IMG/VR virus record: IMGVR_UViG_3300033141_006329
Location: 124,001 to 188,000 of that record
DNA: 64,000 nucleotides
From: a virus
Strand: one strand, 5' to 3'
The notes under the pieces: generated by a model
Databases searched by the model: none
The model's input: the letters and a program-made list of their open reading frames with translations, nothing else
Told to the model about the DNA's origin: nothing
Part shown: positions 3,171 through 50,998 of the stretch, piece by piece
Layout: the number at the start of each line of letters is the position of its first letter
Numbering within the stretch: the first letter of the stretch is position 1
Program-made: the position numbers and the translations under genes

Positions 3171-3799
3171 TGTCAGAGAGAACTATAACATTGCCACCCA
3201 CAGAACAATATTCTATTATAGAGACCTTTAGTGCAAACACTGCTGATATAATAAACCAAGCAATAATTCATATGGTAGGAAATCCTCCAGTGACAGGTAG
3301 CAACTCTATATATGGAGATGTTTATGACCTAACAGAAGATATTGAATATAACCCCTGTGTATTACCAGACTCATTTATAATTACAAAAACAAGTTCCACA
3401 ATTTTGACAGTGGGATTAGGAGAATGTTTTATCAATGGTGTATATATTAAAATTAAAGCTGAAAAGTCATTATCTGCAAATAGTGCGGATTCATATATAG
3501 ATGGAGCAGTAGCACACTCTGGAGATATATATGTCGTCGTAAAATATGATCCTACAGAGATTGCACCGAATGCATATGTTGGCCTCATTAAAAAAGCTAC
3601 ATATGTTGCATTGTCAGATTCAGATAAAAAGAAATATTTGTTTCTAGGATCTTTAGATGCAACTTATATATCATCAACAGTGAGTGATATTATAACATAT
3701 TATTATGATGTAGATGATGATACACAAACCAGAAGTTACCCCCATAATTTTTTAGATGGTGGTTGGCTTGATTTGCCACCAGATCTATGGCACCCATAG
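3170..3799 (+). CDS. Virion structural protein, paralogue of preceding gene
   Basis: A 209-aa protein, translationally coupled to the upstream gene by a TAATG overlap. It shares segment order with that gene (LTVGLGECFING, then SGDIYVVVKYDP, then YLFLGSLDA) but has a longer N-terminus. It ends in aromatic and proline-rich LDLPPDLWHP. The role is probably tail or fibre attachment, inferred from position between head genes and the 1758-aa fibre. The HNH endonuclease starts 12 bases after its stop. Confidence 0.65.
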   Translation: MSERTITLPPTEQYSIIETFSANTADIINQAIIHMVGNPPVTGSNSIYGDVYDLTEDIEYNPCVLPDSFIITKTSSTILTVGLGECFINGVYIKIKAEKSLSANSADSYIDGAVAHSGDIYVVVKYDPTEIAPNAYVGLIKKATYVALSDSDKKKYLFLGSLDATYISSTVSDIITYYYDVDDDTQTRSYPHNFLDGGWLDLPPDLWHP

Positions 3800-3810
3800 G
3801 AGAAGATAGT

Positions 3811-4512
3811 ATGGAAGGTATAAATATGGAGAGATTGAAGGATATGCAGGAAATATGGAGAGAAGCACTTGATATGATATGGGAGGAAGGTCTGGAACAA
3901 GTCAATATCAACAAAAGTGGAAGACACGGTAGTTATAAAGGAACGCCATTTCATCATTGGACTTGGAATCTCTATCATCCTGATGATCCTAAAATATTAG
4001 GTGATAGTATGCATATTCATCATAAAGATTTGAATCATTTAAATGACCATATATCTAATCTTCAAAAAATGACTAGTGCCGAACATACGAGCTTACATAT
4101 GACCGGCCATTGCCCATCAAAAGAAACCAGACAAAAAAGGTCTGAATCACAAATGGGTGAAAAAAATCACATGTACGGGCGTATAGGTAAGGATAATCCT
4201 CGAACTAATACACATCATACAATTGAATCTAAGCTATTAATGTCACAAAATAAAAAAGGTAAGTGCTGCGGAAAAGATAACCCCTTTTATAATAAACATC
4301 ACACGATAGAAAGTAGACAAGCAATGTCTATTAATCGTACTGACGTTTCGGGTAAAAATAATCCTAATGCAAAGGCTGTAGTGGCGGAATATAAAGAATA
4401 TTCCACTATGAAATCGGCTGGTGAGGCTTTAAACGTGAGTCCAGATACCATAAATCATCGCATCAAAACAAACAAACCAGGATATTCATATATTCCTAAA
4501 AACAAAAACTAA
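3811..4512 (+). CDS. HNH homing endonuclease with NUMOD3 and IENR1-like modules
   Basis: A free-standing homing-type nuclease of 233 aa from the ATG at 3811, chosen because AGGAG sits 8 bases upstream; an in-frame ATG at 3787 lies inside the previous gene. The HNH core is HIHHKDLNHLNDHISNLQ. It is followed by repeated NUMOD3-like DNA-contact motifs (KNHMYGR, GKDNPRTNTHHT, GKDNPFYNKHHT) and a C-terminal IENR1/NUMOD1-type helix-turn-helix (STMKSAGEALNVSPDTINHR). It lies between two structural genes. Inference: a selfish invader of the late operon. Confidence 0.88.
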   Translation: MEGINMERLKDMQEIWREALDMIWEEGLEQVNINKSGRHGSYKGTPFHHWTWNLYHPDDPKILGDSMHIHHKDLNHLNDHISNLQKMTSAEHTSLHMTGHCPSKETRQKRSESQMGEKNHMYGRIGKDNPRTNTHHTIESKLLMSQNKKGKCCGKDNPFYNKHHTIESRQAMSINRTDVSGKNNPNAKAVVAEYKEYSTMKSAGEALNVSPDTINHRIKTNKPGYSYIPKNKN

Positions 4513-4533: not shown

Positions 4534-7500
4534 ATGTCAACAAAAATAAAGTTAAAACGCGGTACTAATGCTGCTGTTCTTGCATATACAGCTGATATTG
4601 GTGAGCCCATCTTGGATACAGACAATATGCAAGTCAGAATAGGAGATGGCTCCACGCCAGGTGGTATACTTCTCAGTAAATCTGATTCGCTATATCAAGT
4701 AGAAAAGAATGCAGAGCAGATGAGAGCAATTACACCTTCTGGATTTTTACCACCTCATCAAAATGCTGAGGATGCTGTAGGATTAGTAAATACTACTACT
4801 GTATTATACACTGCTACAACAGCAAGATCAACTGGGATACCTTCCCTATTAACCAAAGCTAATGCATCTGTAGTCTCAGATGATAGTAATAAATTCTATC
4901 TCCACAATGCTCCTCAGAAAGTGAATGTGAACGGATATTCTATAGTTTTGGAAAATCAACCATCAAAATATTGTAATAATATAATAGAGCTTCCTGCTGC
5001 TCCTTCCTCAGGTACACGTCAAGATCTCATCATACTAGAGGTTTGGAAGGAAATGGTCACCCCAGGCGCTTCTGATGATGCATTTTTACCTTATGGATCA
5101 GTAAATTACGATCCCAAGAATTATGAAAGTACTTATGATTCCTGCACTCTATTCTCAACAGTTCAAACAGGCGGAAATTGGCCCTTATATTTAGCAGGTA
5201 CTTATGGCAACCCCTCAGAAGATTCCTCCTATCATGGAAAATATGTGAAGGCTAATGATGCAAACATAGCAACTTTCATAGCTAATCCAGAAAATAATGT
5301 AGGAATAACAGATGATGGTAAGTTCTTTCAAATTAGGTGGAGAATTGCTACATTAGAGAATATAAATCCTGATAGGGCAATCCCTACGGGTACCCAGTGG
5401 GTATTTAATGATAATAATGGTGATAATTTTAGACCTCAAGGCCAAAAAGCCTCAAGACCAATATCTGGTTCTTCAACAGGTACTGATGGTGTATTGGGTG
5501 TGCAGCTAGGAGGATATGCAGTTAATTCTACTATTTTAGATTCTGGGTTGTATCTTGGTGGTAAATATACCAATGGCAATACACCTCTGACTGCTATATC
5601 TGGTGTTTCCTTAGATGGCTTTACTTATAATATCCCAATCTGCGCAGTCCATCGTAGAAACTCAACTGCCTATTCTCTCTCAAATCCAAACGGAGCAGGA
5701 TCAATAGCTTCTGGTATATCTGGTAGACCTGACGATAAATATTATGATGAAGTTAATAAAGATGATATACTCGATTTAAGACATAGAGTAAGCCCTAATG
5801 GATTTGATGTGAAGGCTTTACATGAAGAGACTCAGCAACAATTATTGAAGAGTGATTTGACAACTAACTGGGAAAATTTGAATTCAGATCCTGGTGGATA
5901 TGCAGTTTATTCTGATAGTGATGTGTATGGTACTAAGATATTAAGAAGTGAGGGTGTAACGGGCGAAGATAAAGTGCTCGGTGATAGTATGTTCGGAACT
6001 ACTGGAAGTGAATTAGTTACTAATGGTGATTTTACAACTGATTATTCTGGATGGACTGACGGTTCTAGTGGGTCAGGATCAGTATCAGTTATTTCTAGTC
6101 AATTAAATATTACTGGAATAGATACTAATAATAGAGGAATAGCTAAACAAAGTGTTTCTGTTACGATAGGTAAATTATATAAAGTGTCTATAGATATAAT
6201 TAATGCTGGGGTTGATGCAAGAGTAAATATGGGATCTATAAATGGTGCTTATGATTATGCTCAATTTGACTGTAAAGGAACATATAATTCTTTATTCAAA
6301 GCAACAACAAGCACTGCTTATATATATGTGTCTGAATTAGGTAATGGAACTATGATTGTAGATAATGTTTCACTTTATGAAATCGATGCAGGAACTGAAG
6401 CTGCTTTCACACAAATAGATGAAACCAACAATTCTGTACCAGCTCGTCTTGACGGTCTTCGTAATTATTTTTCTGATCGTCCAGGTGAACAAGTTATATA
6501 CGGAGTTGTAGAAGATACTTCTAATGCTGCTGAAAATCCAAACCCACAAGGATTCTTTGATTTTGGCACACCAGCAACGGGAAATATGTGGAGTTTAAGT
6601 AAGGCTCAGATGGTTATAGATATAGGTGATGAAGGCACCTATGATGTATCACATGCCTCTGCCCCATCAGTAATTCTTGATGGTAGTACTTATAAATGTT
6701 GGTATTCAGGATATGGTGTAGGTGCTTATAGAACTATTTATGCCGAAGGACCAGATGGTATAAATTGGTCAAATCATGAAATGGTTATAGATAAAGATGT
6801 GGAAGGCACTTATGATACATCATATGCCTATCAACCATCAGTAATTCTTGATGGTAGTACTTATAAATGTTGGTATACTGGATATGATGGAAGTACTTAT
6901 AGAATTCTTTATGCTGAAGGACCAGATGGTATAAATTGGTCAAATCATGAGATGGTAATAGATAAAGATGTGGAAGGCACTTATGATACATCACATGCCT
7001 ATACACCATCAGTAATTCTTGATGGTGGTACTTATAAAATGTGGTATGCTGGATTTGATGGAAGTAATAATAGAATTATTTATTGTGAAGGTACAGATGG
7101 TATAAATTGGTCAAATCATGAAATGGTTATAGATAAAGATGTGGAAGGAACTTATGATACATCATATGCCTATTCTCCATCAGTAATTAAAGATGGCAGC
7201 ACTTATAAATGTTGGTATGCTGGATTAACTGGAAGTAATTTTAGAACTCTTTATTGTGAAGGACCAGATGGCATAAACTGGTCAAATCATGAGATTGTTA
7301 TAGATATAGGGACGGAAGGTACTTATGATACAGTACGTGTCTATTCTCCATCAGTAATTCTTGATGGTAGTACTTATAAATGTTGGTATTCTGGATATGA
7401 TGGAAGTAATTATAGAATAATCTACAATGAAGCCTGCTATGGCGTCCGTCTAGATTCCCGTTCACTAAATGCCGCTGGTACTAGGCAGGATTTAGAAACA

Positions 7501-9810
7501 GATAGACCTCATTTCTCTGGAAGAACTCCTGACATATATTGGTCAGATGATGTTAATAATTCTGATTATGCTGGTAAGGGCTGTAAAGCTGATGTGAACT
7601 GGTGGACAGATGGTAGCCTGACTATGACGGGGGATATGTTGTATGGTGAAGTTTTGGAGCCTACATGGACTAAACTTACAATCAATGCAGCTTCCAGTTT
7701 AGTAGCTGGTGATACATATACTGTTGATGCTGTAGTATGTACTGTTAAATGTTGGAATACTGCTAAAACAATCTTATGGGTAACTTATGCTGGATCAACT
7801 ATTGTAGATACTACAGGTGCATCCTCTGCTCATACAGGAAGTGGTGATGCTTCTATAACTGTAACAGCAATAGTAACAGGAGAAGGTAATCTTGATATGA
7901 GTGGCAATGCCGTTTCTGGTGTTACTGATTTGGCTGGTAGTTATGTCGGAGAAGGTGAAGATCTTCATGCTGGCAAATCCCTCCTCATGAATGCTTATGT
8001 CGAATATAATGCAGGTTCTGGATTTCTAACTCGTGTTCCTTATGATGATCATACCACTACATATCCTGACGGTAGAGAAAGCATAAAAGCATGTCAATTT
8101 TATATTGATGGTACACAAGTATTACCAAATGATGGTATTGATTTTCAACCATTTGGAACACCAATAGATCCTACCACTGACGATGCTGGTGAGCCGGATA
8201 CACATTGTAAGAGTACTGGACTTATGGGATTTGTTAAGAGAGGTGCTGTGATTGATATAGGTGCGGAAGGCACTTATGATACATCACATGCCTATCAACC
8301 ATCAGTAATTCTTGATAGTGGTACTTATAAATGTTGGTATGCTGGATATGGTGCAAGCGCTTATAGGATTCTTTATGCTGAAGGACCAGATGGTATAAAT
8401 TGGTCAAACCATGAGATGGTAATAGATAAAGATGTGGAAGGCACTTATGATATATCACATGCCTATACGCCATCAGTAATTCTTGATGGTAGTACTTATA
8501 AATGTTGGTATTCAGGACATGATGGAAGTAATTATAGAACTCTTTATTGTGAAGGACCAGATGGCATAAACTGGTCAAATCATCAATTGAGTATAAATAT
8601 AGGCGATGAAGGAACTTATGATACAGGACGTGCCTATTATCCATCAGTAATTCTTGATGGTAGTACTTATAAATGTTGGTATACTGGATTTGATGGATCT
8701 TATCTTAGAATTATATATTGCGATAGTGCAGATGGTATAACTTGGACAAATCATCAAATGGTTATAGATAAAGATGTGGAAGGTACATATGATACATCAC
8801 ATGCCTATCAACATTCAGTAATTCTGGATGGTAGTACTTATAAAATGTGGTATGCTGGAGAGGCGTCAGGTATTAATAGAGTTCTTTATGCTACATCTAC
8901 AGATGGTAAGAACTGGGCTAAACCTGTATTATTTATGGATATAGGAACAGAAGGTAATCAAGATAGTGTAGATTTATCGAAAGTAAGTATAATAAAAGAT
9001 GATGCTGCATATAAGGTGTGGTATACTGGGTTTAGTGGCTCTTATTTGAGAATATTCCACTCAGTTCTCACTATGACAGATCCTGCCAATACTGGTTCCT
9101 CCACTACTGGTGTGTATTCTACTACTGGAAATATGAATTTTGCTCCAGGTAAAGATGACTCGGTATTAATTCAATATGAGCATCGTGCATTGCAATTTGA
9201 TACAAGTAGATTGGGTGGAAGTGATCCTTCTCATACCCTGACTTATACATTGAAGTATTTACCTGATACTGCTATGGTGACTACGTTGGGAACTGGTGGT
9301 AAACCAGCGGATAATACATACTATGAAGATTATAGAGATTTTACTAACGAAATTGGTTATACAGCTTATAGCGACTATATGCTTACAGGTGTAGAATTAG
9401 AGATGGACCCACAAGGTGGTAATATTGAATTTAGTTCAGCATCTTTTGATAAACCTTGGCTCACTCTCGATACACATGTCCCATATAAATTTTCTAAATA
9501 TTATGGAAGGAGCAGTTATTCATATAAAAGCTTAGAAGGGGATTATATAAGTCTGAGTAGTCTTGATATGTATAGCTTTAATGGATTATCAACTTTGGTA
9601 ACTGATATATATTATCCAGCATTTGGAAGTTTAGGCATGTTGCCACCAGTCGCAATAGCTGGTTGTGTTATTATGTTACCAGGTATAGGTGAAAAAAATA
9701 AGGAGTTATTTATTATTATGGGACTGAATCTATACGGGAATATAACAGAGACAACTAATGTAAGCTCTGTTACAATGTACAATCTAATAGGCAGACCTGT
9801 AACAAAATAG
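4534..9810 (+). CDS. Long tail fibre / receptor-binding protein with two five-bladed propellers
   Basis: A 1758-aa virion protein expected to bind the host surface. Residues 1-50 (IKLKRGTNAAV, GEPILDTDNMQVRIGDGS) match the N-terminal attachment domain common to phage fibres and Mtd-type proteins. Residues about 492-617 (LVTNGDFTTDYSGWTD to VDNVSLYEI) look like a jelly-roll carbohydrate-binding module. About 693-967 and 1239-1512 each hold five repeats of about 54 aa (PSVILDGSTYKCWYSGYDG, PDGINWSNHEM), resembling GH43/GH32-type propellers. The spacer between them and the C-terminal 245 aa are beta-rich. I see no clear catalytic acid pair, so binding is more likely than hydrolysis. Confidence 0.8.
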   Translation: MSTKIKLKRGTNAAVLAYTADIGEPILDTDNMQVRIGDGSTPGGILLSKSDSLYQVEKNAEQMRAITPSGFLPPHQNAEDAVGLVNTTTVLYTATTARSTGIPSLLTKANASVVSDDSNKFYLHNAPQKVNVNGYSIVLENQPSKYCNNIIELPAAPSSGTRQDLIILEVWKEMVTPGASDDAFLPYGSVNYDPKNYESTYDSCTLFSTVQTGGNWPLYLAGTYGNPSEDSSYHGKYVKANDANIATFIANPENNVGITDDGKFFQIRWRIATLENINPDRAIPTGTQWVFNDNNGDNFRPQGQKASRPISGSSTGTDGVLGVQLGGYAVNSTILDSGLYLGGKYTNGNTPLTAISGVSLDGFTYNIPICAVHRRNSTAYSLSNPNGAGSIASGISGRPDDKYYDEVNKDDILDLRHRVSPNGFDVKALHEETQQQLLKSDLTTNWENLNSDPGGYAVYSDSDVYGTKILRSEGVTGEDKVLGDSMFGTTGSELVTNGDFTTDYSGWTDGSSGSGSVSVISSQLNITGIDTNNRGIAKQSVSVTIGKLYKVSIDIINAGVDARVNMGSINGAYDYAQFDCKGTYNSLFKATTSTAYIYVSELGNGTMIVDNVSLYEIDAGTEAAFTQIDETNNSVPARLDGLRNYFSDRPGEQVIYGVVEDTSNAAENPNPQGFFDFGTPATGNMWSLSKAQMVIDIGDEGTYDVSHASAPSVILDGSTYKCWYSGYGVGAYRTIYAEGPDGINWSNHEMVIDKDVEGTYDTSYAYQPSVILDGSTYKCWYTGYDGSTYRILYAEGPDGINWSNHEMVIDKDVEGTYDTSHAYTPSVILDGGTYKMWYAGFDGSNNRIIYCEGTDGINWSNHEMVIDKDVEGTYDTSYAYSPSVIKDGSTYKCWYAGLTGSNFRTLYCEGPDGINWSNHEIVIDIGTEGTYDTVRVYSPSVILDGSTYKCWYSGYDGSNYRIIYNEACYGVRLDSRSLNAAGTRQDLETDRPHFSGRTPDIYWSDDVNNSDYAGKGCKADVNWWTDGSLTMTGDMLYGEVLEPTWTKLTINAASSLVAGDTYTVDAVVCTVKCWNTAKTILWVTYAGSTIVDTTGASSAHTGSGDASITVTAIVTGEGNLDMSGNAVSGVTDLAGSYVGEGEDLHAGKSLLMNAYVEYNAGSGFLTRVPYDDHTTTYPDGRESIKACQFYIDGTQVLPNDGIDFQPFGTPIDPTTDDAGEPDTHCKSTGLMGFVKRGAVIDIGAEGTYDTSHAYQPSVILDSGTYKCWYAGYGASAYRILYAEGPDGINWSNHEMVIDKDVEGTYDISHAYTPSVILDGSTYKCWYSGHDGSNYRTLYCEGPDGINWSNHQLSINIGDEGTYDTGRAYYPSVILDGSTYKCWYTGFDGSYLRIIYCDSADGITWTNHQMVIDKDVEGTYDTSHAYQHSVILDGSTYKMWYAGEASGINRVLYATSTDGKNWAKPVLFMDIGTEGNQDSVDLSKVSIIKDDAAYKVWYTGFSGSYLRIFHSVLTMTDPANTGSSTTGVYSTTGNMNFAPGKDDSVLIQYEHRALQFDTSRLGGSDPSHTLTYTLKYLPDTAMVTTLGTGGKPADNTYYEDYRDFTNEIGYTAYSDYMLTGVELEMDPQGGNIEFSSASFDKPWLTLDTHVPYKFSKYYGRSSYSYKSLEGDYISLSSLDMYSFNGLSTLVTDIYYPAFGSLGMLPPVAIAGCVIMLPGIGEKNKELFIIMGLNLYGNITETTNVSSVTMYNLIGRPVTK
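6612..7433 (+). repeat. Five coding repeats, first propeller
   Basis: Five tandem units of about 165 bases encode blades with PSVILDG, CWYSGYDG, YRILYAEG and DGINWSNHE. DNA identity between units is high, for example repeated gatggtataaattggtcaa and gatggtagtacttataaa, so units could recombine. The last unit lacks the DGINW segment, as expected where a propeller closes. Confidence 0.85.
8248..9069 (+). repeat. Five coding repeats, second propeller
   Basis: A second set of five blade units in the same reading frame, about 800 bases downstream of the first. Units 1, 2 and 4 are nearly identical to units of the first set, which points to duplication of a whole propeller. The final unit is diverged (SIIKDDAAYKVWYTGFSG). 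Confidence 0.85.
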
Positions 9811-9823
9811 TAACAATTTTTTT

Positions 9824-9849
9824 GGGAGGAGTTCTTCTGGACTTCTCCC
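9824..9849 (+). terminator. Possible terminator hairpin after fibre gene
   Basis: The stem GGGAGgAGT pairs with ACTtCTCCC around an 7-8 base loop. It lacks a long T-run afterwards (attattata), so termination is uncertain. It lies 14 bases after the fibre stop codon. Confidence 0.4.
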
Positions 9850-9907
9850 ATTATTATAGGAACCCTAATTCTATGGCTGGATTATTTGGAAGGGATTAGG
9901 GGGTAGG

Positions 9908-9961
9908 TAAATAAATGGACGAACTCTGAATTATCAGAGTGGAAATTAACAATTTTATTTA
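9908..9961 (+). ncRNA. Two-stem leader RNA element, copy 1
   Basis: The outer stem TAAATAAA (9908-9915) pairs with TTTATTTA (9954-9961). The inner stem ACTCTGA pairs with TCAGAGT around an ATTA loop. The strands between stems are TGGACGA (5') and GGAAATTAAC (3'), identical to copy 2 at 10838, while both stems differ in sequence but still pair. The 3' strand ends one base before the GGGAGAAGG ribosome site of the gene at 9974, so control of translation or RNA processing is plausible. Confidence 0.65.
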
Positions 9962-9973
9962 AGGGAGAAGGAA

Positions 9974-10765
9974 ATGAGTAATTTAATTAATGGTTACAGT
10001 GATATATTGAGTAGAAATAATTTGACAACTAATGGTAGTTTCAGAATAAATCAAAGAGGGAATTTTACTGGTTGGGCACCTTGTGCTGTGAATGATTATG
10101 TGGCGGATTGTTGGCGTGTTATTTATAATGGTTTAGATTATTGTGAAGCTATACAAAACTCAGATGGTTATTTGGGATTAAAAGGATATGGTAAAAAAGG
10201 CCAATACTTTAGACTTAAAAATAAAGATATTAGTAATTTTGGACAAAATGGTAATAACTCCCTGGCGGCGATAACTGGGACAGTAGTAGCATATAACGCA
10301 GTAGGTGGGGGTCCTTTATACGTATCAGGATATCCACGATTTAACAGTAGTGGCGACACAATGATTTTTATAAAAGATACTATATTAAAATCTGGTGAAA
10401 CAACTGAAAATCTGTCTGTTTATACAACTTTATCACACAATTTTAATTACGACCCTCAAATTTTCTTATCATTGAAGGTAACAGGTCAATTTGAAGTTTA
10501 TCTTTATAATTATAGAGAACTAGCCGGTGCATTTAGAAATCCACCAAGTTTTGTTCCTGTCCCATATGCTGAGGATTTACAACGAGCTGAAAGATATTAT
10601 CAGGAAGGTTCTTTTAAAGGTGATGTTTATGTTCCATTTAGAACCAAAATGGCAGGAACCCCCTCAGTTACCTTAAGTTCGGGTAGTGCAAGTGATATAT
10701 CGGCTGATGGGTTTGTAACTGGAAGTAGTACTGGCGTTTATACTTGGACAGCAGAAATAGCATAA
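9974..10765 (+). CDS. Tail fibre / carbohydrate-binding protein
   Basis: A 263-aa protein. The N-terminus, LTTNGSFRINQRGNFTGW followed by NDYVADCWRV, is a pattern common in phage fibre and receptor-binding proteins (NGxFxxxQRG, then YxxDRWR). The middle is beta-rich, and the C-terminus (ERYYQEGSFKG, VPFRTKMAGTPSVTLSSGS) resembles fibre tips. It sits directly after the 1758-aa fibre and is probably a second receptor-binding component. Its leader holds the two-stem RNA element. Confidence 0.7.
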   Translation: MSNLINGYSDILSRNNLTTNGSFRINQRGNFTGWAPCAVNDYVADCWRVIYNGLDYCEAIQNSDGYLGLKGYGKKGQYFRLKNKDISNFGQNGNNSLAAITGTVVAYNAVGGGPLYVSGYPRFNSSGDTMIFIKDTILKSGETTENLSVYTTLSHNFNYDPQIFLSLKVTGQFEVYLYNYRELAGAFRNPPSFVPVPYAEDLQRAERYYQEGSFKGDVYVPFRTKMAGTPSVTLSSGSASDISADGFVTGSSTGVYTWTAEIA

Positions 10766-10793
10766 CTTTAACAAAAATTAAAGTCCTACAAAG

Positions 10794-10818
10794 AGGGGTT
10801 AAAATTCCTTTAACCCCT
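10794..10818 (+). terminator. Hairpin after fibre gene
   Basis: The perfect ten-base stem AGGGGTTAAA pairs with TTTAACCCCT around a 5-base loop. It lacks a T-run and is followed directly by the next GGACAAAC motif, so it may be a terminator or a transcript 3'-end stabiliser. Confidence 0.5.
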
Positions 10819-10820
10819 AA

Positions 10821-10838
10821 GGACAAACTATAAACAAT
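10821..10838 (+). promoter_or_regulatory. Late motif GGACAAACTATAAACAAT
   Basis: Identical over 18 bases to the copy at 1413. It lies immediately after a strong hairpin and immediately before the second RNA leader element. It is 90 bases from the ATG at 10911. Confidence 0.6.
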
Positions 10839-10886
10839 ATTGAATGGACGAAGGGAAGGTTCCCTGGAAATTAACCGACTTCAATA
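10838..10886 (+). ncRNA. Two-stem leader RNA element, copy 2
   Basis: The outer stem TATTGAA (10838-10844) pairs with TTCAATA (10880-10886). The inner stem AGGGA pairs with TCCCT around an AGGT loop. The joining strands TGGACGA and GGAAATTAAC are identical to copy 1 at 9908, and both helices change sequence while pairing is kept. It is followed by AAAGGAG for the gene at 10911. It begins at the end of the GGACAAAC motif, so it may form the 5' end of the transcript. Confidence 0.65.
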
Positions 10887-10910: not shown

Positions 10911-11990
10911 ATGAGTTTATTACATGTAACATTTGATGGAGAAACAATTTGTGCAATGAGACCAGAGGATCCCACTAAGACTTTTTCAAGTAGTGATGTT
11001 CCTAGTGGTACGGCATCTGTTATTTATAAGGCTGCCAAAATCTCATCTAAAAGTCATGGTAAAACCTTAACCACTGGTCTACCCACCCTCACATCCGCCG
11101 AAATAGCCACCAAAATATCCGATAGAGTAGATGCCCTTACAGCCGTTACACCCGGCGAAGTTATATATGATGGTACTAGTGATACAATAGGTACTATATC
11201 CACTTATGACGCCGACTTAGACGCTATAGATCAGACAAAAGTCCTAAAACCCACAGCCGCAGAAATCCAAGCAAAAATAGATGAAACAAGAGGATTCACC
11301 GAAGCAGAAGCCCAGCAACATGCTGATCAAGAAAATCATGTAAATTTATGTTCAAGCCTCACGGCAAAATCCACAGGTACTTGTACTATAGATGGTGTTA
11401 CACTTAGTGACTCATCCGCTGATTTTGTTACTGATGTAGTAGCCGCAAATGATACAGTAGTTATTGGTAGTGATATGGCATTTGTTGTAGATAGTACCAC
11501 AGATGAAATTACATTATCACATGCTATCGCTGAAGGTGATTACAACGTATATACACCAATGAGTTTATCCGACGCTATGGCTGCGATGAGGACCAAAGAT
11601 AATGATGGTGATACCATTGATGACTTAACTGATAACGAAGCAGATACAGCCCTTACAGTCGCATCTAAGACCGCTCTCGCAACACAGCAAGTTAATGTTG
11701 TTGTTGATGGTTGTTTAGAAGTTCCGACTCTTTATACAGAATTAGAATCCGGCAATTGTACAACGTCCACTACTACTCTAACTGATGGTACCGCTGACTT
11801 TGTTACTGCTGGTGTAGCTGAAGATGATTTAGTAAAAGTTGATGGTGGTATGTATAAGGTAGCCTCAGTAACTAGTGCTACGGTTTTAGAATTGAAGGTA
11901 GCCCCAGCTCCAGAACTTGCAGAAGCCACATCATATTCCGTATTGAACAGTGCATTTATGGCACAATTTGATTATATAAAATCCGCGTAG
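10911..11990 (+). CDS. Virion structural protein with repeated beta domain
   Basis: A 359-aa protein, Thr/Ala/Asp-rich and low in Lys. Two copies of a domain are visible: TLSDSSADFVTDVVAANDTVVI near residue 160 and TLTDGTADFVTAGVAEDDLVKV near residue 285, each followed by a beta segment (DSTTDEITLSHAI; SVTSATVLELKV). A similar segment (DGTTDFVVDGITTDMYVF) occurs in the protein at 38917. The region is GC-richer than its neighbours (about 11040-11300). The exact virion position is unknown. Confidence 0.6.
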   Translation: MSLLHVTFDGETICAMRPEDPTKTFSSSDVPSGTASVIYKAAKISSKSHGKTLTTGLPTLTSAEIATKISDRVDALTAVTPGEVIYDGTSDTIGTISTYDADLDAIDQTKVLKPTAAEIQAKIDETRGFTEAEAQQHADQENHVNLCSSLTAKSTGTCTIDGVTLSDSSADFVTDVVAANDTVVIGSDMAFVVDSTTDEITLSHAIAEGDYNVYTPMSLSDAMAAMRTKDNDGDTIDDLTDNEADTALTVASKTALATQQVNVVVDGCLEVPTLYTELESGNCTTSTTTLTDGTADFVTAGVAEDDLVKVDGGMYKVASVTSATVLELKVAPAPELAEATSYSVLNSAFMAQFDYIKSA

Positions 11991-17384: not shown

Positions 17385-18830
17385 TTATTCTATCATTATT
17401 ACATTTTGATCTGAACTCTTAAAAAGTTCAATATTATGTATAACGATATCATCAATGGGTACACTACTAACATTATCCATATTTTTAAATCTTATAACTC
17501 TCCAACCTATCTGATTAAACTGAAAATCTCTATAATCATCTCTATCTTTATCTTGATGATATCTTGATCCATCTGACTCAACAATTATATTTAAACTTGA
17601 AATCACTATATCAGCAGTTCTGTTTATTTCAAAAAACGGTACTTCTAACTCTGCGTCTGGATAATATTTCTTAATAATCTTATATAAAGCTTTTTGGGGC
17701 TTGGTGGTGTTTGTAGTGTTAAATGAATTTACATATGTTGCAAATCCGCTTAAAAACTTCAAACTCTGCTTTTTTCTATATTCATCACTCCCAGTATAAC
17801 CTTCATATTTGACCCCCTCCCTTTTGCACTGTGGGCACCGGGTAAAACTATCTGCACATAATCTTGATTTAAATACTACATTACAATGTCTACAAGTCAT
17901 AAATTTAAAACCAATCGGATGACCCAACGAACCACCAATAATGCCACCAATTCTTGACATTTCTATAAAATGTTTACTAAAAAGAGGAGCATTTGAATAT
18001 TTTAATTTATATTCACTTAATGTCATATCATGTTTAGCCAGATGTTTATGATCTATTCGACCATAAGCTTTCCAACAAACCTGACAAACTATTCGTTTAT
18101 CATCAACCTCCAGTTGATTGGGATATGTCATATTATTACAATCTGGGCATATTTCATTTTCATAGTTTATAGCAACTCTAACCTCTCTATCACATACTGT
18201 GCATTGAATAGTTTTATTTTTAAATTTCTCAATATGCATAGCGTTTTCATTATCATATTCGTTTAACATGGTTCTCCTAGTTTTATCTCCAGAAGACCCA
18301 GCCATACCTATACCGCCATATCTTATAGTACAGGTTTCTAAAATTTTATCATTGACCCCATCTATACCACGGGCATTTGTTACATCCTCACCATATCTTT
18401 TTTGTAACGTTTCTATACGAGCTACATTAGCATGTTCATGAGTTCTCCCATCAGGATCTTCTTTTCCAGCCCTTTTACAATGATCACAAAATCCAAATTT
18501 TCCATGATTGCCATTAACTGTTAAATCATCATCGGGACAATCATCATCTTCATGATAAAAACATTTTACTATTTTGGATGCAACTGCACTATTCTTTCCC
18601 CTCATAACTCTTTTTTGTTGCTGTTCATACGTCATTGTTATCCAATCAGGAAATTCTGTCCTTACATCCTCTAATGTTTTTCCATGCTTTCTTACATGCT
18701 TCCCATCTAAAATTTGTTTACCTTTCCCATCCAATTCCTTACAATAAGGACAGGTTATAGCTTCCGCAACACCAATTAAATTCTTTCCTTTTGCAAATGG
18801 TATCATACTTCTTTTCCTCTCTTCTCTCAT
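17385..18830 (-). CDS. Zinc-finger homing-type endonuclease (Vsr/EDxHD-like)
   Basis: A 481-aa protein with many CxxC pairs: CPYCKELDGKGK near the start, CTVCDREVRV and CPDCNNMTY mid-protein, a MucR-like CQVCWKAYGRIDHKHLAKHDMTLSEY, and CPQCKREG. The C-terminal 110 aa hold a Vsr/EDxHD-type nuclease core (EINRTADIVI, then IIVESDGSRYHQDKDRDDYR, then GWRVIRFKN). It is convergent with the capsid gene. A GGACAAATTTAAGAG motif lies about 65 bases upstream. Inference: a free-standing mobile nuclease. Confidence 0.78.
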   Translation of the reverse strand: MREERKRSMIPFAKGKNLIGVAEAITCPYCKELDGKGKQILDGKHVRKHGKTLEDVRTEFPDWITMTYEQQQKRVMRGKNSAVASKIVKCFYHEDDDCPDDDLTVNGNHGKFGFCDHCKRAGKEDPDGRTHEHANVARIETLQKRYGEDVTNARGIDGVNDKILETCTIRYGGIGMAGSSGDKTRRTMLNEYDNENAMHIEKFKNKTIQCTVCDREVRVAINYENEICPDCNNMTYPNQLEVDDKRIVCQVCWKAYGRIDHKHLAKHDMTLSEYKLKYSNAPLFSKHFIEMSRIGGIIGGSLGHPIGFKFMTCRHCNVVFKSRLCADSFTRCPQCKREGVKYEGYTGSDEYRKKQSLKFLSGFATYVNSFNTTNTTKPQKALYKIIKKYYPDAELEVPFFEINRTADIVISSLNIIVESDGSRYHQDKDRDDYRDFQFNQIGWRVIRFKNMDNVSSVPIDDIVIHNIELFKSSDQNVIMIE

Positions 18831-27491: not shown

Positions 27492-27823
27492 AATATATTA
27501 TATCCCTCCTCCATAAATTGATTTAAAATATTATATTGACTTATCTGTATATTCAATTCATAAATCTCTTTGACTAACTTTTTAAATTTTTGCAAATTAT
27601 ATTCCTCGTCGCGAGATTTGATAATAACCATTAACTCTTTTCTGAACGATGAAGATTTAATGCAGAAACGGATATGACCAAAACCCGAAGCTGAGATGAT
27701 CCAATCCTTCTCGCTAGGAAACAATCGAAATAATTCAATGTGCTCTTCTCTATAGACTGCATCTGTAGTAATATAACTAGGGTAATGTTTACGGTTCTCA
27801 AAGCTAATCCACCGGCTGCTCAT
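27488..27823 (-). CDS. Array-family small protein, SFREEL type
   Basis: A 111-aa protein: RKHYPSYITTDAVYREEHIE, FRLFPSEKDWIISASGFGHI, SSSFRKELMVIIKSRD, NILNQFMEEGYNIL. First of four consecutive members (27488-28781) sharing a W...TTDxYxxxxxxLFxxFP opening and an RE/RKEL helix. The ending supplies GGAGGG. Function unknown. Confidence 0.8.
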   Translation of the reverse strand: MSSRWISFENRKHYPSYITTDAVYREEHIELFRLFPSEKDWIISASGFGHIRFCIKSSSFRKELMVIIKSRDEEYNLQKFKKLVKEIYELNIQISQYNILNQFMEEGYNIL

Positions 27824-28151
27824 AACGACATCCCTCCTCCATAAATTTCATCAATAAATCATTGTCATATATTTTCACATTCACTGTTTTATTAATACTT
27901 TTCCGCACTACATATTTAAAAAATTCGACACTCTGACTTATATTCGATTTGGTAATAACTGATTTTAAACACTCTCTAAATAATAATGAAGTGGTATAAA
28001 ATTTAATAACACCTCTTCCAGAACCCGAAAGGATCCAATAATAAGTACCTTGATATATACGTAGTTGATCCCGGCCATTTATCCTAAATGTATCCGTAGT
28101 ATAATAACTTTTGGGAGGACCTTCTTTTTCCTCATTCCAACCATCTATCAT
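27804..28151 (-). CDS. Array-family small protein, SFREEL type
   Basis: A 115-aa protein: PKSYYTTDTFRINGRDQLRI, YYWILSGSGRGVIKFYTTSL, LFRECLKSVITKS, DNDLLMKFMEEGCRYEQ. The last five residues (YEQPVD) extend past the EGG motif because the overlap with the next gene is longer (20 bases). Function unknown. Confidence 0.8.
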   Translation of the reverse strand: MIDGWNEEKEGPPKSYYTTDTFRINGRDQLRIYQGTYYWILSGSGRGVIKFYTTSLLFRECLKSVITKSNISQSVEFFKYVVRKSINKTVNVKIYDNDLLMKFMEEGCRYEQPVD

Positions 28152-28461
28152 CTCCTACTCCTTTCACTAATAATATTTCTAATATATCGTCTTTTACTTC
28201 TATATATTTACAAGACTCATCATTCACAATAGGTTCAATTCCGCACTTATTAAAAAATTCAGATAATACTGTTTTTATAACAACTTTTATCTTAGGTGAA
28301 AATATTTTAAATACAAGAATACAATAATTATTGTGTGGAGTTACAACATTCCAACCATCATTATCTGGAAAGAGATTAAATTGTTTTACATCATCCTTAT
28401 AATATCGATCCGTTGTATTATAAGAACAAATAGTATTAGTAATAGATTTCCAACCTGTCAT
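28132..28461 (-). CDS. Array-family small protein, SFREEL type
   Basis: A 109-aa protein: TGWKSITNTICSYNTTDRYY, QFNLFPDNDGWNVVTPHNNY, IKVVIKTVLSEFFNKCG, and a weak ending KDDILEILLVKGVGDDRWLE. The EGG triad has decayed to VKG, although AAAGGAGT is still encoded there. Function unknown. Confidence 0.78.
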   Translation of the reverse strand: MTGWKSITNTICSYNTTDRYYKDDVKQFNLFPDNDGWNVVTPHNNYCILVFKIFSPKIKVVIKTVLSEFFNKCGIEPIVNDESCKYIEVKDDILEILLVKGVGDDRWLE

Positions 28462-28781
28462 AATTCTTCTCCCTCATTTATAATTGTGATTAGTATATCT
28501 AGTTCCAATTTTATACTTGGATAACTATTCATAAACAGATATAGGCTGTCTAATCCATGTTTTTCAATATATTCTGATATAATTGTTTTTATCACTTCTC
28601 TAAAAGATAATAGACCAGTATAAAATTTAATATTGCCTAAGTTTATATGTTTTGATAACAACCAACGATATTCGGTAACATATAGGTATAGAAAATATTT
28701 TTCACCGATCCAATATTTATCACAAGCCGTGTATCTAAAAACTTTATCTGTTAATTCGAGCCAACCGTTGCTATAACTCAT
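28458..28781 (-). CDS. Array-family small protein, SFREEL type
   Basis: A 107-aa protein: NGWLELTDKVFRYTACDKYW, then LSFREVIKTIISEYIEKHGL, then LELDILITIINEGEEL. Closest to 28132. The ATG overlaps the end of the MWKK-type gene (KGYEL). The ending GAGGGAGAAGAATTATGA encodes the next ribosome site. Function unknown. Confidence 0.8.
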   Translation of the reverse strand: MSYSNGWLELTDKVFRYTACDKYWIGEKYFLYLYVTEYRWLLSKHINLGNIKFYTGLLSFREVIKTIISEYIEKHGLDSLYLFMNSYPSIKLELDILITIINEGEEL

Positions 28782-29094
28782 ATCCTTTCTCCATCAAACT
28801 GTTTATATTCTCATCGATATTGATTTTCACAACAATTTTATGCAGATTTCTCATCATCATTGTTACACCTTTAAAATCATGAAAAATTTGATCCCCTATA
28901 GCATCACGTATTTCATACTTAAAATCTATGGATGATTTGGGAGGAATCTTGAACCAGAAAAGATTTATAATACAACCGCCTCCTCTAAATACTTCACGTA
29001 GGCTCACACACCAGTAAACATAATCAACCGCAGAGATAGATAGGGTGTGGTCGCCATAATTAAAGCGTATACCATTCTCACATTTTTTCCACAT
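28771..29094 (-). CDS. Array-family small protein, MWKK type
   Basis: A 107-aa protein from the ATG at 29094 (MWKKCENGIRFNYGDH), which lies in the end of the upstream gene; the longer frame to 29139 lacks a ribosome site. Its paralogue is 30207 (MWEKFYNGMWFAYDKD). Both have IRDAIGDQIFHDF or LRDIIGKQIYQDF, then an ending VKINIDENINSLMEKGYEL. Function unknown. Confidence 0.8.
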   Translation of the reverse strand: MWKKCENGIRFNYGDHTLSISAVDYVYWCVSLREVFRGGGCIINLFWFKIPPKSSIDFKYEIRDAIGDQIFHDFKGVTMMMRNLHKIVVKINIDENINSLMEKGYEL

Positions 29095-35722: not shown

Positions 35723-37516
35723 CTAACCAATCATTTCCATAAATGCATCCAGCGTCACTACAGGCACATTATATTTTATAGCCTTATCAATTTTACCCGA
35801 TGTAAAATCTGAGTCGGGTTTAACTAATAATGATAGAGTCTTAGTAACAGATTTAGAAGGTGACCATCCCCACACCTCTGCTAATTTGTGATAATGCGCT
35901 TTCTTTTTAGGAAATGTTCCTGTAAAACAAATTGTTTTTACTTCCATGTTTATTTCCTCCTTTTTGCGAATTTTTAATATGCTTTTTAACGCATCGATAT
36001 AATTCCCTAATATATTTAAACTCAGGAAAATTTCCCCTGAGCGTTCTATACCAATGCCCTCAATTTCCATTAATTCATCTGTTGACATTTTCCTCAGATC
36101 CGATAAAGAACGAGTTTTGAGGACAGATTCACTCATTCTTATCCCAACGCCCTCAATATTAAGAGAGGCGAGGATTTGCCATTCATATACTCCATTGTCT
36201 ATAACCTTATGTATTTCATCATATAGGTTTTGAGCCGAACTATTTGCAAATCCATCCAGCTCCAAAATATCTTCTTTAGTGAGATTAAAAATATCAATCA
36301 GACTGTTACAGTCCTTATTGTCTATTAATTTTTTCAGGGTGGGTTCTCCTAATCTCTCTATGCCTATACGAACAACAGAATCAGAGAGGCATTGTAATAG
36401 CTTACCAGTACACTCATCGTTACTACATCTCAATACAGGCTCGTCATATATGACTTTTTCACCACAAGCAGGACACATGTCCAGTTTTATCTCAATTCTA
36501 TTCTTGCCTGGAATAACTTTTTGGACATCAGGAATTATATCACCACATCGTTCGACTATGATCTCATCCCCTATATGTATATCGTTATCCAATACATACT
36601 TATAGTTATGAAGATTGACATTAGATACTATGACTCCACTAATCTCTACAGGCTCAACTTTGCCTACGGGGGTAATAACATTCTTTCCCGAACTCCAGAA
36701 TATATCTATCAACTTAGTTCTACCTGTAGGGTTTTTGAATTTTAGTGCCATCTGCCCTTTTGGATGATGAGAGGTTGCGCCTAAAGATTTAGAATATTCC
36801 TCATCATGCAATTTAATGACCAGACCATCTGTGGGATATTTATTCATGATAGCTTTTTGTATCAAAGTATTCCAATCTAATTTGGCCATGTGTTTATATT
36901 TCACAGATAGATTGACATGATTAAATGGAACAAAGGTTAATATTTTTCCTAAAGAATCATCTATATCATCTCTATTAAACAAACCAGCACACGCGTTCCT
37001 AGGAGTCTTATATGCCTCACCATTTTTTCTACAGATCTTATCTCGTATTCGATCAAAATCTTTAAGGGTCATAACAATCTCACCGACAACATATTTGGGA
37101 TTTTCATTGCCCTCAAATTTGATTATTGGTAATTTATCGGATATATTCACACCTATATATCCGTTACCTCTTGTCGATAAAACACCAGCATTAAACTCAC
37201 CAGTTGCTCCATCCAATTTTAATTGAATGTCAAATAATTCATTATCGGTCCTCGCTGTTTTTCCACACCATTCTAATATTTCATTTACAGAATATTTTTT
37301 GGCTAATGATAGCATAGGATTTTTATGTGTAATCTTACCTGCTGGTATGGATACAGGTGTATTAATCTCATTTAATAGAGGATGTTTTGGATCAATTGCT
37401 CGCAACTCTTCTACCAGTACATCATACTCTGAATCAGATATGTTCGAGTCATCATCCTCCCAATATAGGCGATCGTGATAGGTAATTAATCTTTCTAATT
37501 CTTCTTTTCTATTCAT
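35723..37516 (-). CDS. ligA: NAD-dependent DNA ligase
   Basis: A 597-aa enzyme that seals nicks in DNA using NAD. Domain order is complete: the Ia NAD-binding segment (YHDRLYWEDDDSNISDSEYD), the adenylation lysine in LKLDGATG (Lys100), an OB fold, a four-Cys zinc finger (CPACGEKV, CSNDECTGK), helix-hairpin-helix segments (DILELDGFANSSAQNL, LMEIEGIGI) and a C-terminal BRCT domain (KTICFTGTFPKKKAHYHKL). It is about 70 residues shorter than typical bacterial LigA. A replication or repair role in the phage is expected. Confidence 0.93.
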   Translation of the reverse strand: MNRKEELERLITYHDRLYWEDDDSNISDSEYDVLVEELRAIDPKHPLLNEINTPVSIPAGKITHKNPMLSLAKKYSVNEILEWCGKTARTDNELFDIQLKLDGATGEFNAGVLSTRGNGYIGVNISDKLPIIKFEGNENPKYVVGEIVMTLKDFDRIRDKICRKNGEAYKTPRNACAGLFNRDDIDDSLGKILTFVPFNHVNLSVKYKHMAKLDWNTLIQKAIMNKYPTDGLVIKLHDEEYSKSLGATSHHPKGQMALKFKNPTGRTKLIDIFWSSGKNVITPVGKVEPVEISGVIVSNVNLHNYKYVLDNDIHIGDEIIVERCGDIIPDVQKVIPGKNRIEIKLDMCPACGEKVIYDEPVLRCSNDECTGKLLQCLSDSVVRIGIERLGEPTLKKLIDNKDCNSLIDIFNLTKEDILELDGFANSSAQNLYDEIHKVIDNGVYEWQILASLNIEGVGIRMSESVLKTRSLSDLRKMSTDELMEIEGIGIERSGEIFLSLNILGNYIDALKSILKIRKKEEINMEVKTICFTGTFPKKKAHYHKLAEVWGWSPSKSVTKTLSLLVKPDSDFTSGKIDKAIKYNVPVVTLDAFMEMIG

Positions 37517-41738: not shown

Positions 41739-41880
41739 ACTACCACAACTTCAAGTTGCAGCTTCCTGCTTCGCTGAAATCCACTTGACAAGGTTCTATA
41801 CAAGCAACCAAGTTAGAGGTTGATCTCTCAGCAGGCGTTGAACTGATGCGTCCCGCACCAGTTTGATTTAACCCTTTATA
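41736..41880 (-). ncRNA. Candidate omega RNA of TnpB
   Basis: In TnpB elements the guide RNA is made from the 3' end of tnpB and ends at the right end of the element. Here that region covers the last about 45 codons (SSTPAERSTSNL onward) and the CAACTTGAAGTTG hairpin. The position is inferred from family knowledge only. Confidence 0.35.
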
Positions 41881-42990
41881 GAGGATGTTCTTTGCAGCAT
41901 GAATGTCACGATCTTTTCTATAACCACAGTCGCAGACGAACATCCTATCTTTTAAGGTTAGTGATTTGTTAATTGCGTTACACGCAGGACATAATTTAGT
42001 GGAGGGATAGTATCTATCTACGAGCCTTAGAGTATGTGACTTTTTCTTTAAGTCACTCATTATTCCTCCAAGGATTGAATGTTGAACTGATTTTCCAAAC
42101 CACTTCTCGCTCCACCCTTTAATATTCTCGTCTTGCACACAGACAATTTTATACTTCTTTGTGATATGCGAAACAATTTTGTTTTTCGCATCTTTCTTCT
42201 GATTAGTTAACTTGTTGTATTTCTTAGCTATCTTCGAATTGAGTTTCCTATTATTCTTAGAGCCTTTCTTCTTGTGTTTCTTCTTTCGTTGAAGACGTTT
42301 TAGACTTTCTGGTATTGGGAATGAGAAGCTATGCTTCTCACCATTATCAAAAGTAAGAGAAGTCTTGATGCCGAAGTCAATGCCTATAGCTTCCTGTTCA
42401 AACACTTTCTCTTCCTTCGGTAAATAGCAAGTGACATGTAAGAAATAATCTTCGCATTTTCGTACGAGGTTCGCTGTTGCAATCTCTGCATTTGAAGGGA
42501 TTTGTTTCAAACCTATCAGTTTGAAACTACCCTTAAATCCTTGCAGCTTGAGATACTTGCCTCGCAGCTTATGCGTACTATTGAATTGCTTCAGATAAAT
42601 GCTATTCGATCTACTCTTGAACTTCAATCTACCTACTTTCTTACCTTTCTTCTTCTTAGCAGATAGTCCACAAATGTTGTGAAACAACCTCTCTCGAACG
42701 CCCTGCTTCATCTGAGAAGAAATCGCTTCAAGCGAACGAGTTTCGGCGATTTTATCTTTTCCGCAAATTGAGATCTCGTTCACTTTAGTATTAAAATTTA
42801 CCGGGTTATCTGTACCTAACATACAATTATACAACCACTTAGCTTCTAAGAATAAACGATCCAGGTACTCTCGTTTTTTCTTGGAGAGATGTGATTTATC
42901 AAACTTCAGCTCGTAAACTTTACAAATCAAAGACTTACGTCTTTCTCTTGTAGCCTTACCAGCCAGTTTGATTCTTTCGTTTTTTGTCAT
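41740..42990 (-). CDS. tnpB: TnpB RNA-guided endonuclease
   Basis: A 416-aa protein with all catalytic features: RuvC Asp205 (GIDFGIKTSLTF), Glu288 (CVQDENIKGW), a four-Cys zinc finger (CPACNAIN, CDCGYRKD) and Asp362 (RDIHAAKNIL). The C-terminus continues RISSTPAERS, the region that normally overlaps the guide RNA. The length is normal for an active enzyme. It is transcribed against its neighbours and carries a phage-type GGACAAACTACAAATA motif 16 bases upstream of the start, which suggests it is expressed during infection. Confidence 0.92.
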   Translation of the reverse strand: MTKNERIKLAGKATRERRKSLICKVYELKFDKSHLSKKKREYLDRLFLEAKWLYNCMLGTDNPVNFNTKVNEISICGKDKIAETRSLEAISSQMKQGVRERLFHNICGLSAKKKKGKKVGRLKFKSRSNSIYLKQFNSTHKLRGKYLKLQGFKGSFKLIGLKQIPSNAEIATANLVRKCEDYFLHVTCYLPKEEKVFEQEAIGIDFGIKTSLTFDNGEKHSFSFPIPESLKRLQRKKKHKKKGSKNNRKLNSKIAKKYNKLTNQKKDAKNKIVSHITKKYKIVCVQDENIKGWSEKWFGKSVQHSILGGIMSDLKKKSHTLRLVDRYYPSTKLCPACNAINKSLTLKDRMFVCDCGYRKDRDIHAAKNILYKGLNQTGAGRISSTPAERSTSNLVACIEPCQVDFSEAGSCNLKLW

Positions 42991-43005: not shown

Positions 43006-43022
43006 TTATTTGTAGTTTGTCC
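43006..43022 (-). promoter_or_regulatory. Late motif GGACAAACTACAAATAA upstream of tnpB
   Basis: A - strand copy of the phage motif followed by AGAGGAAATCTGTAA and the tnpB ATG. It lies between the left-end palindrome and tnpB, so it is inside the element. Confidence 0.55.
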
Positions 43023-43134: not shown

Positions 43135-43151
43135 GGACAAACTGTAAAGAA
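43135..43151 (+). promoter_or_regulatory. Late motif GGACAAACTGTAAAGAA
   Basis: Copy of the motif after the TnpB element, 101 bases before the ATG at 43236. It restores + strand late expression downstream of the oppositely oriented tnpB. Confidence 0.55.
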
Positions 43152-43235
43152 GAATTTAAATTTTATTTCTTGTGAGGAAATAGAAATTAAGAGTTAGTTT
43201 TATAAGGAACTCAAAAAATTGAAAGGAGAATTAAA

Positions 43236-49804: not shown

Positions 49805-50998
49805 ATGGTTAGTTGTAAATTATGCGGTAAAAAATTTGAAACTTTAAGAGGTGTTGCTACGCATCTAAGATTTTGTAAAAAGAATCTGAATGAAATGAAA
49901 ATTGTAGATTATTATAATCAATTTATAAAACAAGGTATTGAAGGAAAGTGTGTACTGTGTGGAAAATATACTAGATTTAACGGATTAGATATAGGTTTTT
50001 CTACGTATTGTGGGAGTCGATGTGCAGCACTTGGTGTAAATAAAGGATTAAAGGCAAATCCCAGAATAAATGAACCAAAAAAGAAATCGGTTATCTGCAA
50101 AATGTGTAATAAAAAATTAAACAATATAAATAGCTTGGGGAACCATCTTAAATATTGTAAATCTAATATTGATAGATTAAATTCAAACCAATATTATAAT
50201 AAATATATAAAGAAAGATGATGAAGAATTATGTAAAACATGTGGAAATGTTACTAAATTCAAAGGTCTGGAGAAAGGTTATGATGCATATTGTAGTAAGA
50301 TTTGTTCAAACAGAGATAGACCGATTTCAGAAAAATTAAATAATACTATTATGTATACAGATAGATTACAAAAAATTGGACTTGAACCTATATATGAAGG
50401 TGAATATTTTACCGGACGCCAAGAGATAGAATTCAAGTGTTCAAAATGTAGTCGTATATTTAAAAATTATACATTTAATATATTAAAAATTAGAAACAAA
50501 TGTCCATTTTGTACAGATAAAAGTAGATCAATATCTGAAAGATTAATATATTCATATCTAAAACATAAATTTCATAAATATAATGTTTATAACAATTATA
50601 AAAAATTATTATATCCATTTGAAATAGATATAATAATGCCTTCTCTTAATATATCTTTAGAATATAATGGTCTTTATTATCATTCAAGTCAAAATTCTCA
50701 AAATAGAGATTTGTGGAAATCACATGGATGCATCAAAAATAATTTCAAGCATGTGGTTATATGGGAAGACGAGTTTAATATACATAATAAAGATTATAAA
50801 TTTATAGATACCATAATAAAAAATGCTATGGAATGTGATGTTAAAAAATACATGAAAAATACAAAATATTTTACAACATTTCCTATCAGTATAGCCGATA
50901 TAGACAACTTCGATAAAACTAAAAGATTTAAACTTTTACAGTTGAGTGAATGTAATAAAAACTTTAAAAGACCTCCAAGATCATTATTCGTCCCATAA
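49805..50998 (+). CDS. Zinc-finger homing-type endonuclease (EDxHD-like)
   Basis: A 397-aa protein. The N-terminal half has paired zinc fingers (CKLCGKKFETLRGVATHLRF; CKMCNKKLNNINSLGNHLKY; CSKCSRIFKN; CPFCTDKSRS). The C-terminal third has a Vsr/EDxHD-type core: YPFEIDIIMPSLNISLEYNG, then YYHS, then HVVIWEDEF. The fold is inferred from the spacing of these acidic and His residues. It has its own late motif and terminator, so it is an independent mobile gene between tail genes. Confidence 0.78.
   Translation: MVSCKLCGKKFETLRGVATHLRFCKKNLNEMKIVDYYNQFIKQGIEGKCVLCGKYTRFNGLDIGFSTYCGSRCAALGVNKGLKANPRINEPKKKSVICKMCNKKLNNINSLGNHLKYCKSNIDRLNSNQYYNKYIKKDDEELCKTCGNVTKFKGLEKGYDAYCSKICSNRDRPISEKLNNTIMYTDRLQKIGLEPIYEGEYFTGRQEIEFKCSKCSRIFKNYTFNILKIRNKCPFCTDKSRSISERLIYSYLKHKFHKYNVYNNYKKLLYPFEIDIIMPSLNISLEYNGLYYHSSQNSQNRDLWKSHGCIKNNFKHVVIWEDEFNIHNKDYKFIDTIIKNAMECDVKKYMKNTKYFTTFPISIADIDNFDKTKRFKLLQLSECNKNFKRPPRSLFVP

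Follow-up and report, generated by a model that had tools for sequence, protein, structure and literature searches.

The closest precedent in logic for the RNA element described here is, by analogy, the operator of gene 43 (DNA polymerase) in phages T4 and RB69, a hairpin just upstream of the ribosome site whose top is identical in the two phages and whose stem differs in length (PMC3014915). Another structured phage leader RNA for autogenous control, that of T4 gene 32, is a pseudoknot (PMC3014915). Phage HK022 carries two related copies of another RNA, putL and putR, near its transcription starts; these are about 70 nt long with two stem-loops, involve a triplex and act on the host polymerase (PMC9378689). 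Lastly, hammerhead ribozymes have been found in the neighbourhood of phage tail genes (PMC3088659). For jumbo phages that encode their own RNA polymerase, knowledge of post-transcriptional control is scant.

Short RNAs acting in cis are already known from phage leaders, and the element presented here is of this kind; we found two copies of it, both on the sense strand just 5' of the ribosome sites of two neighbouring genes. Both copies therefore lie where a gene 43-type operator would, on the sense strand and upstream of or overlapping the ribosome site, and the likeness extends to a leader hairpin with conserved bases and a varying length (PMC3014915). However, the conserved bases of the gene 43 operator make up the top of the hairpin with its apical loop, whereas in the present element they lie in an internal loop that separates two helices, and its apical loop varies; moreover, the gene 43 operator has a cognate protein, whereas the protein that would bind the present element is putative. 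In contrast to the T4 gene 32 pseudoknot, the fixed loops have no pseudoknot partner that we could see, and the inner apical loops differ between the copies (ATTA and AGGT).

Two copies of a leader RNA element in a jumbo phage

The window analysed here is a stretch of 64,000 nucleotides, bases 124001-188000 of a 223,370-base record from a jumbo phage that encodes a multisubunit RNA polymerase of its own. One 1372-aa open frame in the record encodes the beta subunit. Matches to the beta-prime domain PF00623 fall in two different open frames with about 780 bases between them, and beta-prime would accordingly appear to be a split gene or to carry an insertion; RNA polymerase sequences lie at record positions 27796-28941 and 36180-37279, both on the minus strand. 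In its major capsid protein the phage shares 71% identity with two distinct jumbo-size IMG/VR records (three contigs, of which two are near-identical); a distant similarity links this protein to the capsid proteins of phages AR9 and PBS1 and of staphylococcal jumbo phages.

Direct reading of the sequence confirmed the two elements that a sequence-only reading of this DNA had pointed out, at 9908-9961 (54 nt) and 10838-10886 (49 nt) on the plus strand, each with an outer and an inner helix that both pair. In copy 1, which reads TAAATAAA-TGGACGA-ACTCTGA-ATTA-TCAGAGT-GGAAATTAAC-AAT-TTTATTTA, an outer helix of 8 pairs (9908-9915/9954-9961) encloses the 5' loop strand TGGACGA (9916-9922), an inner hairpin of 7 pairs (9923-9929/9934-9940) with the apical loop ATTA, the 3' loop strand GGAAATTAAC (9941-9950) and a linker, AAT (9951-9953). 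Copy 2 reads TATTGAA-TGGACGA-AGGGA-AGGT-TCCCT-GGAAATTAAC-CGAC-TTCAATA, with an outer helix of 7 pairs (10838-10844/10880-10886), the 5' loop strand at 10845-10851, an inner hairpin of 5 pairs (10852-10856/10861-10865) with the apical loop AGGT, the 3' loop strand at 10866-10875 and the linker CGAC at 10876-10879. The two loop strands are indeed the same in both copies, 7 bases (TGGACGA) and 10 bases (GGAAATTAAC) that together form a 17-base internal loop.

Directly 3' of copy 1, at a distance of 1 base, lies the ribosome site AGGGAGAAGGA of a 263-aa gene (9974-10765, plus strand) that matches a tail fiber protein family (phrog_4492, E 6e-11). The ribosome site AAAGGAG of a 359-aa gene (10911-11990, plus strand) begins about 8-10 bases 3' of copy 2, and this gene is without a family match. 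The statement that each copy precedes a structural gene is consequently supported for the first gene, whereas for the second no family match bears it out.

For the comparison of the two copies, we inserted N by hand into the alignment so that the helices stayed in register. All 27 comparable cells pair, and sliding the partner (3') strand by 1-3 columns as a control lowers the pairing to 38-48%. Among the 12 comparable pairs, 7 have both bases exchanged and still pair (3 of 7 in the outer helix and 4 of 5 in the inner helix), and 5 are unchanged; one-sided changes and broken pairs are absent (0 of each). The earlier wording that the helices differ completely was therefore too strong, although the compensated changes on which it rested are there. 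The unchanged pairs include two loop-adjacent A-T pairs of the outer helix and the loop-adjacent A-T pair of the inner helix, so the fixed part of the element may extend beyond the loops, to AATGGACGAA ... TGGAAATTAAC ... TT.

The pattern TGGACGA-N(8-38)-GGAAATTAAC has two matches in the window, where none is expected, and two in the whole record, where the reversed pattern, used as a control, has none. At random positions of the record, helices as long as those of copy 1 arise with chances of 1.3e-3 (inner) and 4.7e-3 (outer), and helices as long as those of copy 2 with chances of 7.9e-3 and 1.1e-2, respectively. An unguided search for pairs of sites that share the element's architecture and have identical loop ends (the last 6 and first 8 bases) recovered the pair of copy 1 and copy 2 and found no pair in six shuffled genomes; its other shared matches were the same DNA counted twice in overlapping stretches. 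A search of this record and two relative records for further element pairs with shared loops otherwise returned only chance-like or duplicated-gene pairs. The claim that changed helices around fixed loops reflect a selected RNA structure is thus well supported by the pairing in the alignment and by the shuffles; it is near certain that the element is a selected RNA structure, and it is almost certainly a genuine control element.

Searches for further copies and relatives

A covariance model of the element scores the two copies at 63.6 and 55 bits in their own record and gave nothing convincing in the rest of it. In the whole records of relatives, both close (71% capsid identity) and distant, and of eight named jumbo phages, no match was better than an E value of 0.38. 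Instead of the many matches upstream of late genes that had been anticipated there are only the two copies, with none in the relatives searched. A lack of further copies in relatives had itself been named as grounds for rejecting the structure, and in the records searched this lack formally holds; however, neither the 263-aa nor the 359-aa protein has a match in the two best relative records, and since both downstream genes were not found there, the absence of the element from these two is uninformative. Neither protein has relatives in IMG/VR, and the 263-aa protein has none in the phage collection either.

Matches to a relaxed descriptor elsewhere in the whole record stayed at the level of shuffled sequence. 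Rfam 15 gave no match in the window at the gathering threshold, only chance-level matches for each element searched alone at E values up to 10, and again no match in another 139,501 bases of the record. The exact loop pattern occurs in 61 stretches in IMG/VR, about the number expected by chance, and none of these has a hairpin of at least 5 pairs between the loops. Three looser patterns retrieved nothing with structure among the IMG/VR matches listed, of which the best-looking two read as coding by eye, and a 19-base pattern retrieved 72 matches in GTDB genomes, none with structure and several reading as coding sequence. A literature search with the loop letters found only unrelated occurrences. 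The sequence-structure family is new as judged by these searches, being absent from Rfam and from the relatives, IMG/VR and GTDB as searched.

A promoter-like motif and the two leaders

The record contains a recurrent motif, GGACAAAYTAwAAACA, with about 43 strong sites, which mostly precede a start codon by 25-60 bases and lie just 5' of a ribosome site (median motif-to-start distance 41 bases). The motif is a strong candidate for a promoter of the phage polymerase, and it differs from the AR9 late promoter consensus, AACA-N6-TA/G (PMC5312081). Strong sites in the window lie at 1413, 10821, 12418, 14805, 15367, 38872, 43135, 49761 and 52678 on the plus strand and at 43022 on the minus strand. 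A second flavour of the motif, preceded by CCACAC...ACT, occurs elsewhere in the record.

Immediately 5' of copy 2 is the site GGACAAACTATAAACA at 10821-10836 (plus strand), which would put this copy at the extreme 5' end of its mRNA, beginning about 5 bases after the inferred transcript start. Leader 2 is 90 bases long, whereas most leaders behind the motif are 25-60 bases long and nearly unstructured; its unusual length is due to the element that it contains. Between the tail-fibre gene and this motif there is a hairpin, GGGGTTAAA/TTTAACCCC (10794-10817, plus strand).

In leader 1, by comparison, no promoter motif was found (best score -0.5 bits). Upstream of copy 1, on the plus strand and 3' of a 1758-aa gene, is a terminator-like hairpin of 12 pairs with a weak T tract (9823-9850), and a second predicted hairpin of this leader, CCCTAATTC...GGGATTAGGG, spans 9863-9903. 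Inside the second hairpin there is a tiny open frame of 8 codons, ATGGCTGGATTATTTGGAAGGGATTAG (9872-9898), possibly a chance occurrence. The 1758-aa protein (4534-9810) carries, besides a Major tropism determinant N-terminal domain (Mtd_N), numerous tandem repeats that weakly match glycoside-hydrolase 130 and BNR, and is probably a large adhesin.

Folding, a candidate operator function and its rivals

When excised, both copies fold as described, with z scores of -2.3 (copy 1) and -0.9 (copy 2), so the folding energy by itself is weak evidence for structure. In fuller leaders, the outer helix has a predicted occupancy of 1-12% at a cost of 1.7-3.1 kcal/mol and is thermodynamically marginal, and the inner hairpin is predicted to be strong in all leader fragments except the longest copy 2 fragment. 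The marginal outer helix suggests that the conserved loop either adds tertiary stability invisible to the folding model or is closed by a bound factor. Forcing the fold raises the predicted probability that the AUG is unpaired from 0.58 to 0.87 in leader 1 and from 0.67 to 0.93 in leader 2, a small effect by which the ribosome site would open slightly more. The purine-rich conserved loops have no complementarity to the Shine-Dalgarno bases, which stay unpaired inside the element. A simple ribosome-site switch, one of the functions originally offered, is not supported, since the loops do not complement the Shine-Dalgarno sequence and the forced fold makes the ribosome site more open. None of the other offered functions (processing site, ligand sensor, ribozyme-like fold) found specific support either.

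The reading that we favour, at a rough probability of 40%, is that the element would bind a protein acting in trans, probably one encoded by the phage, that co-regulates both neighbouring genes. Each copy would be a cis-acting RNA in a 5' leader, its short hairpin stacking on the marginal outer helix and holding the 17-base loop as the recognition surface for the factor, and the helices would serve as a scaffold free to drift as long as pairing holds. Binding would close the outer helix, and the bound complex beside the ribosome site would change the translation of both neighbouring genes together. Most likely it would do so by blocking 30S entry, as an autogenous or co-regulatory translational operator, although activation by holding the start region open is possible. 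The folding model favours repression no more than activation: the forced fold makes the AUG more accessible, which speaks for activation and not for repression, unless the ribosome is obstructed by the factor itself.

Such a protein-binding operator would fit both the combination of fixed loops with drifting but paired helices and the placement of the copies on the same strand and in the same place before two ribosome sites; a fold that is conserved yet predicted to be weak alone would likewise be expected if a bound factor or tertiary contacts stabilise it. Against it, there are only two copies, both in one record, the protein partner is putative and the link between the two target genes is their adjacency. 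Furthermore, copy 2 ends 24 bases before the AUG, at the edge of the 30S footprint, and a self-stabilised loop without a protein partner would be expected to show the same conservation pattern. Two copies with fixed loops and compensated helices nevertheless make a readily testable cis element, and if a phage protein binds it, this would be a translational operator common to a tail-fibre gene and its neighbour.

Behind the operator follow, in order, a stabiliser or processing site, a polymerase-binding RNA, a riboswitch, a DNA element and a ribozyme. It is unlikely that the element stabilises the 5' end of the mRNA by slowing decay, or marks a nuclease cut that separates two messages. The start of copy 2 so close behind the inferred transcript start is in favour of this, and leader 1, lacking a promoter motif and placing its copy behind hairpins, looks as a processed junction would; however, 17 invariant loop bases are unnecessary for a stabilising hairpin, and a 5'-end position of copy 1 would be hypothetical. 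A signal in the nascent RNA to the phage's own RNA polymerase, controlling antitermination or pausing as HK022 put does, is decidedly improbable, even though the record encodes a multisubunit polymerase and the presence of two related copies close to transcription starts is reminiscent of putL and putR (PMC9378689). The loop strands also resemble the promoter motif TGGACAAATTAA (p 0.04 and 0.006), a resemblance noticed post hoc and in AT-rich DNA. Instead of two adjacent stem-loops in about 70 nt, the element is one composite hairpin of 49-54 nt, and copy 1 is not near a recognised promoter and comes after, not before, the hairpins of its leader. The least probable reading of all builds on the same resemblance: the loop strands would imitate the phage promoter, so that the leader RNA, nascent or mature, would bind the polymerase and control transcription in cis as a promoter-mimic antiterminator. 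To our knowledge, none has been described for jumbo phages.

A long, fixed, asymmetric internal loop with a helix on either side is a common aptamer layout, which the element matches. Nevertheless, we see little prospect for a small-molecule riboswitch, since an expression platform is not evident (neither the loop nor the outer helix sequesters the ribosome site, and no terminator follows), Rfam riboswitch matches are absent and virion genes would be unusual targets. An equally slim chance attaches to an element acting as DNA, such as an operator, an extra promoter or a recombination site, whose inverted repeats merely look like RNA. GGACGAA does resemble the promoter motif and the phage is rich in homing endonucleases, but a palindromic site gains nothing from complementary arms with changed sequence in both helices, and promoter scores at the loops are at background, for which reason the loops were also rejected as promoters. 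A small self-cleaving ribozyme is slightly less probable again. The element is compact, has a fixed internal loop and lies in the 5' leader of phage genes, and it recalls the hammerhead (including its pseudoknot form) in that GACGA before and GAAA after the hairpin resemble CUGANGA ... GAAA (PMC11300833). This likeness is superficial: the 5' strand UGGACGA leaves C3 and U4 of the CUGANGA core unmatched (PMC11300833), and the 3' strand GGAAAUUAAC has an extra G before GAAA. The hammerhead also needs three helices, whereas both copies have two, with no stem III or cleavage-site arrangement. With the hammerhead core lacking and no Rfam ribozyme match, a known ribozyme is not supported.

We would like to note several further observations on this DNA. 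A coding origin of the loops was considered, as ATGGACGAA contains ATG in both copies, and was rejected by reading the sequence: the frame in copy 1 stops after four codons, and the two copies differ in the phase of the second loop. Homing-endonuclease-like free-standing frames lie between late genes at 3787-4512, 17385-18830, 49805-50998, 54535-55644 and 57611-58621; the first matches HNH/homing endonuclease families, and the other four were judged by reading. The frame at 41740-42990 (minus strand) reads like a TnpB-type transposon nuclease and has its own promoter motif, the one at 43022. At another site in the record, the motif is immediately followed by an 8-pair hairpin, TGTCACCT/AGGTGACA, with a second motif 144 bases downstream. 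Finally, a 101-base leader behind a motif (43135-43235), before a 345-aa gene, is predicted to be well folded (-14.2 kcal/mol) and contains GGAAATAGAAATTAAG, which is loosely like the second loop of the element.
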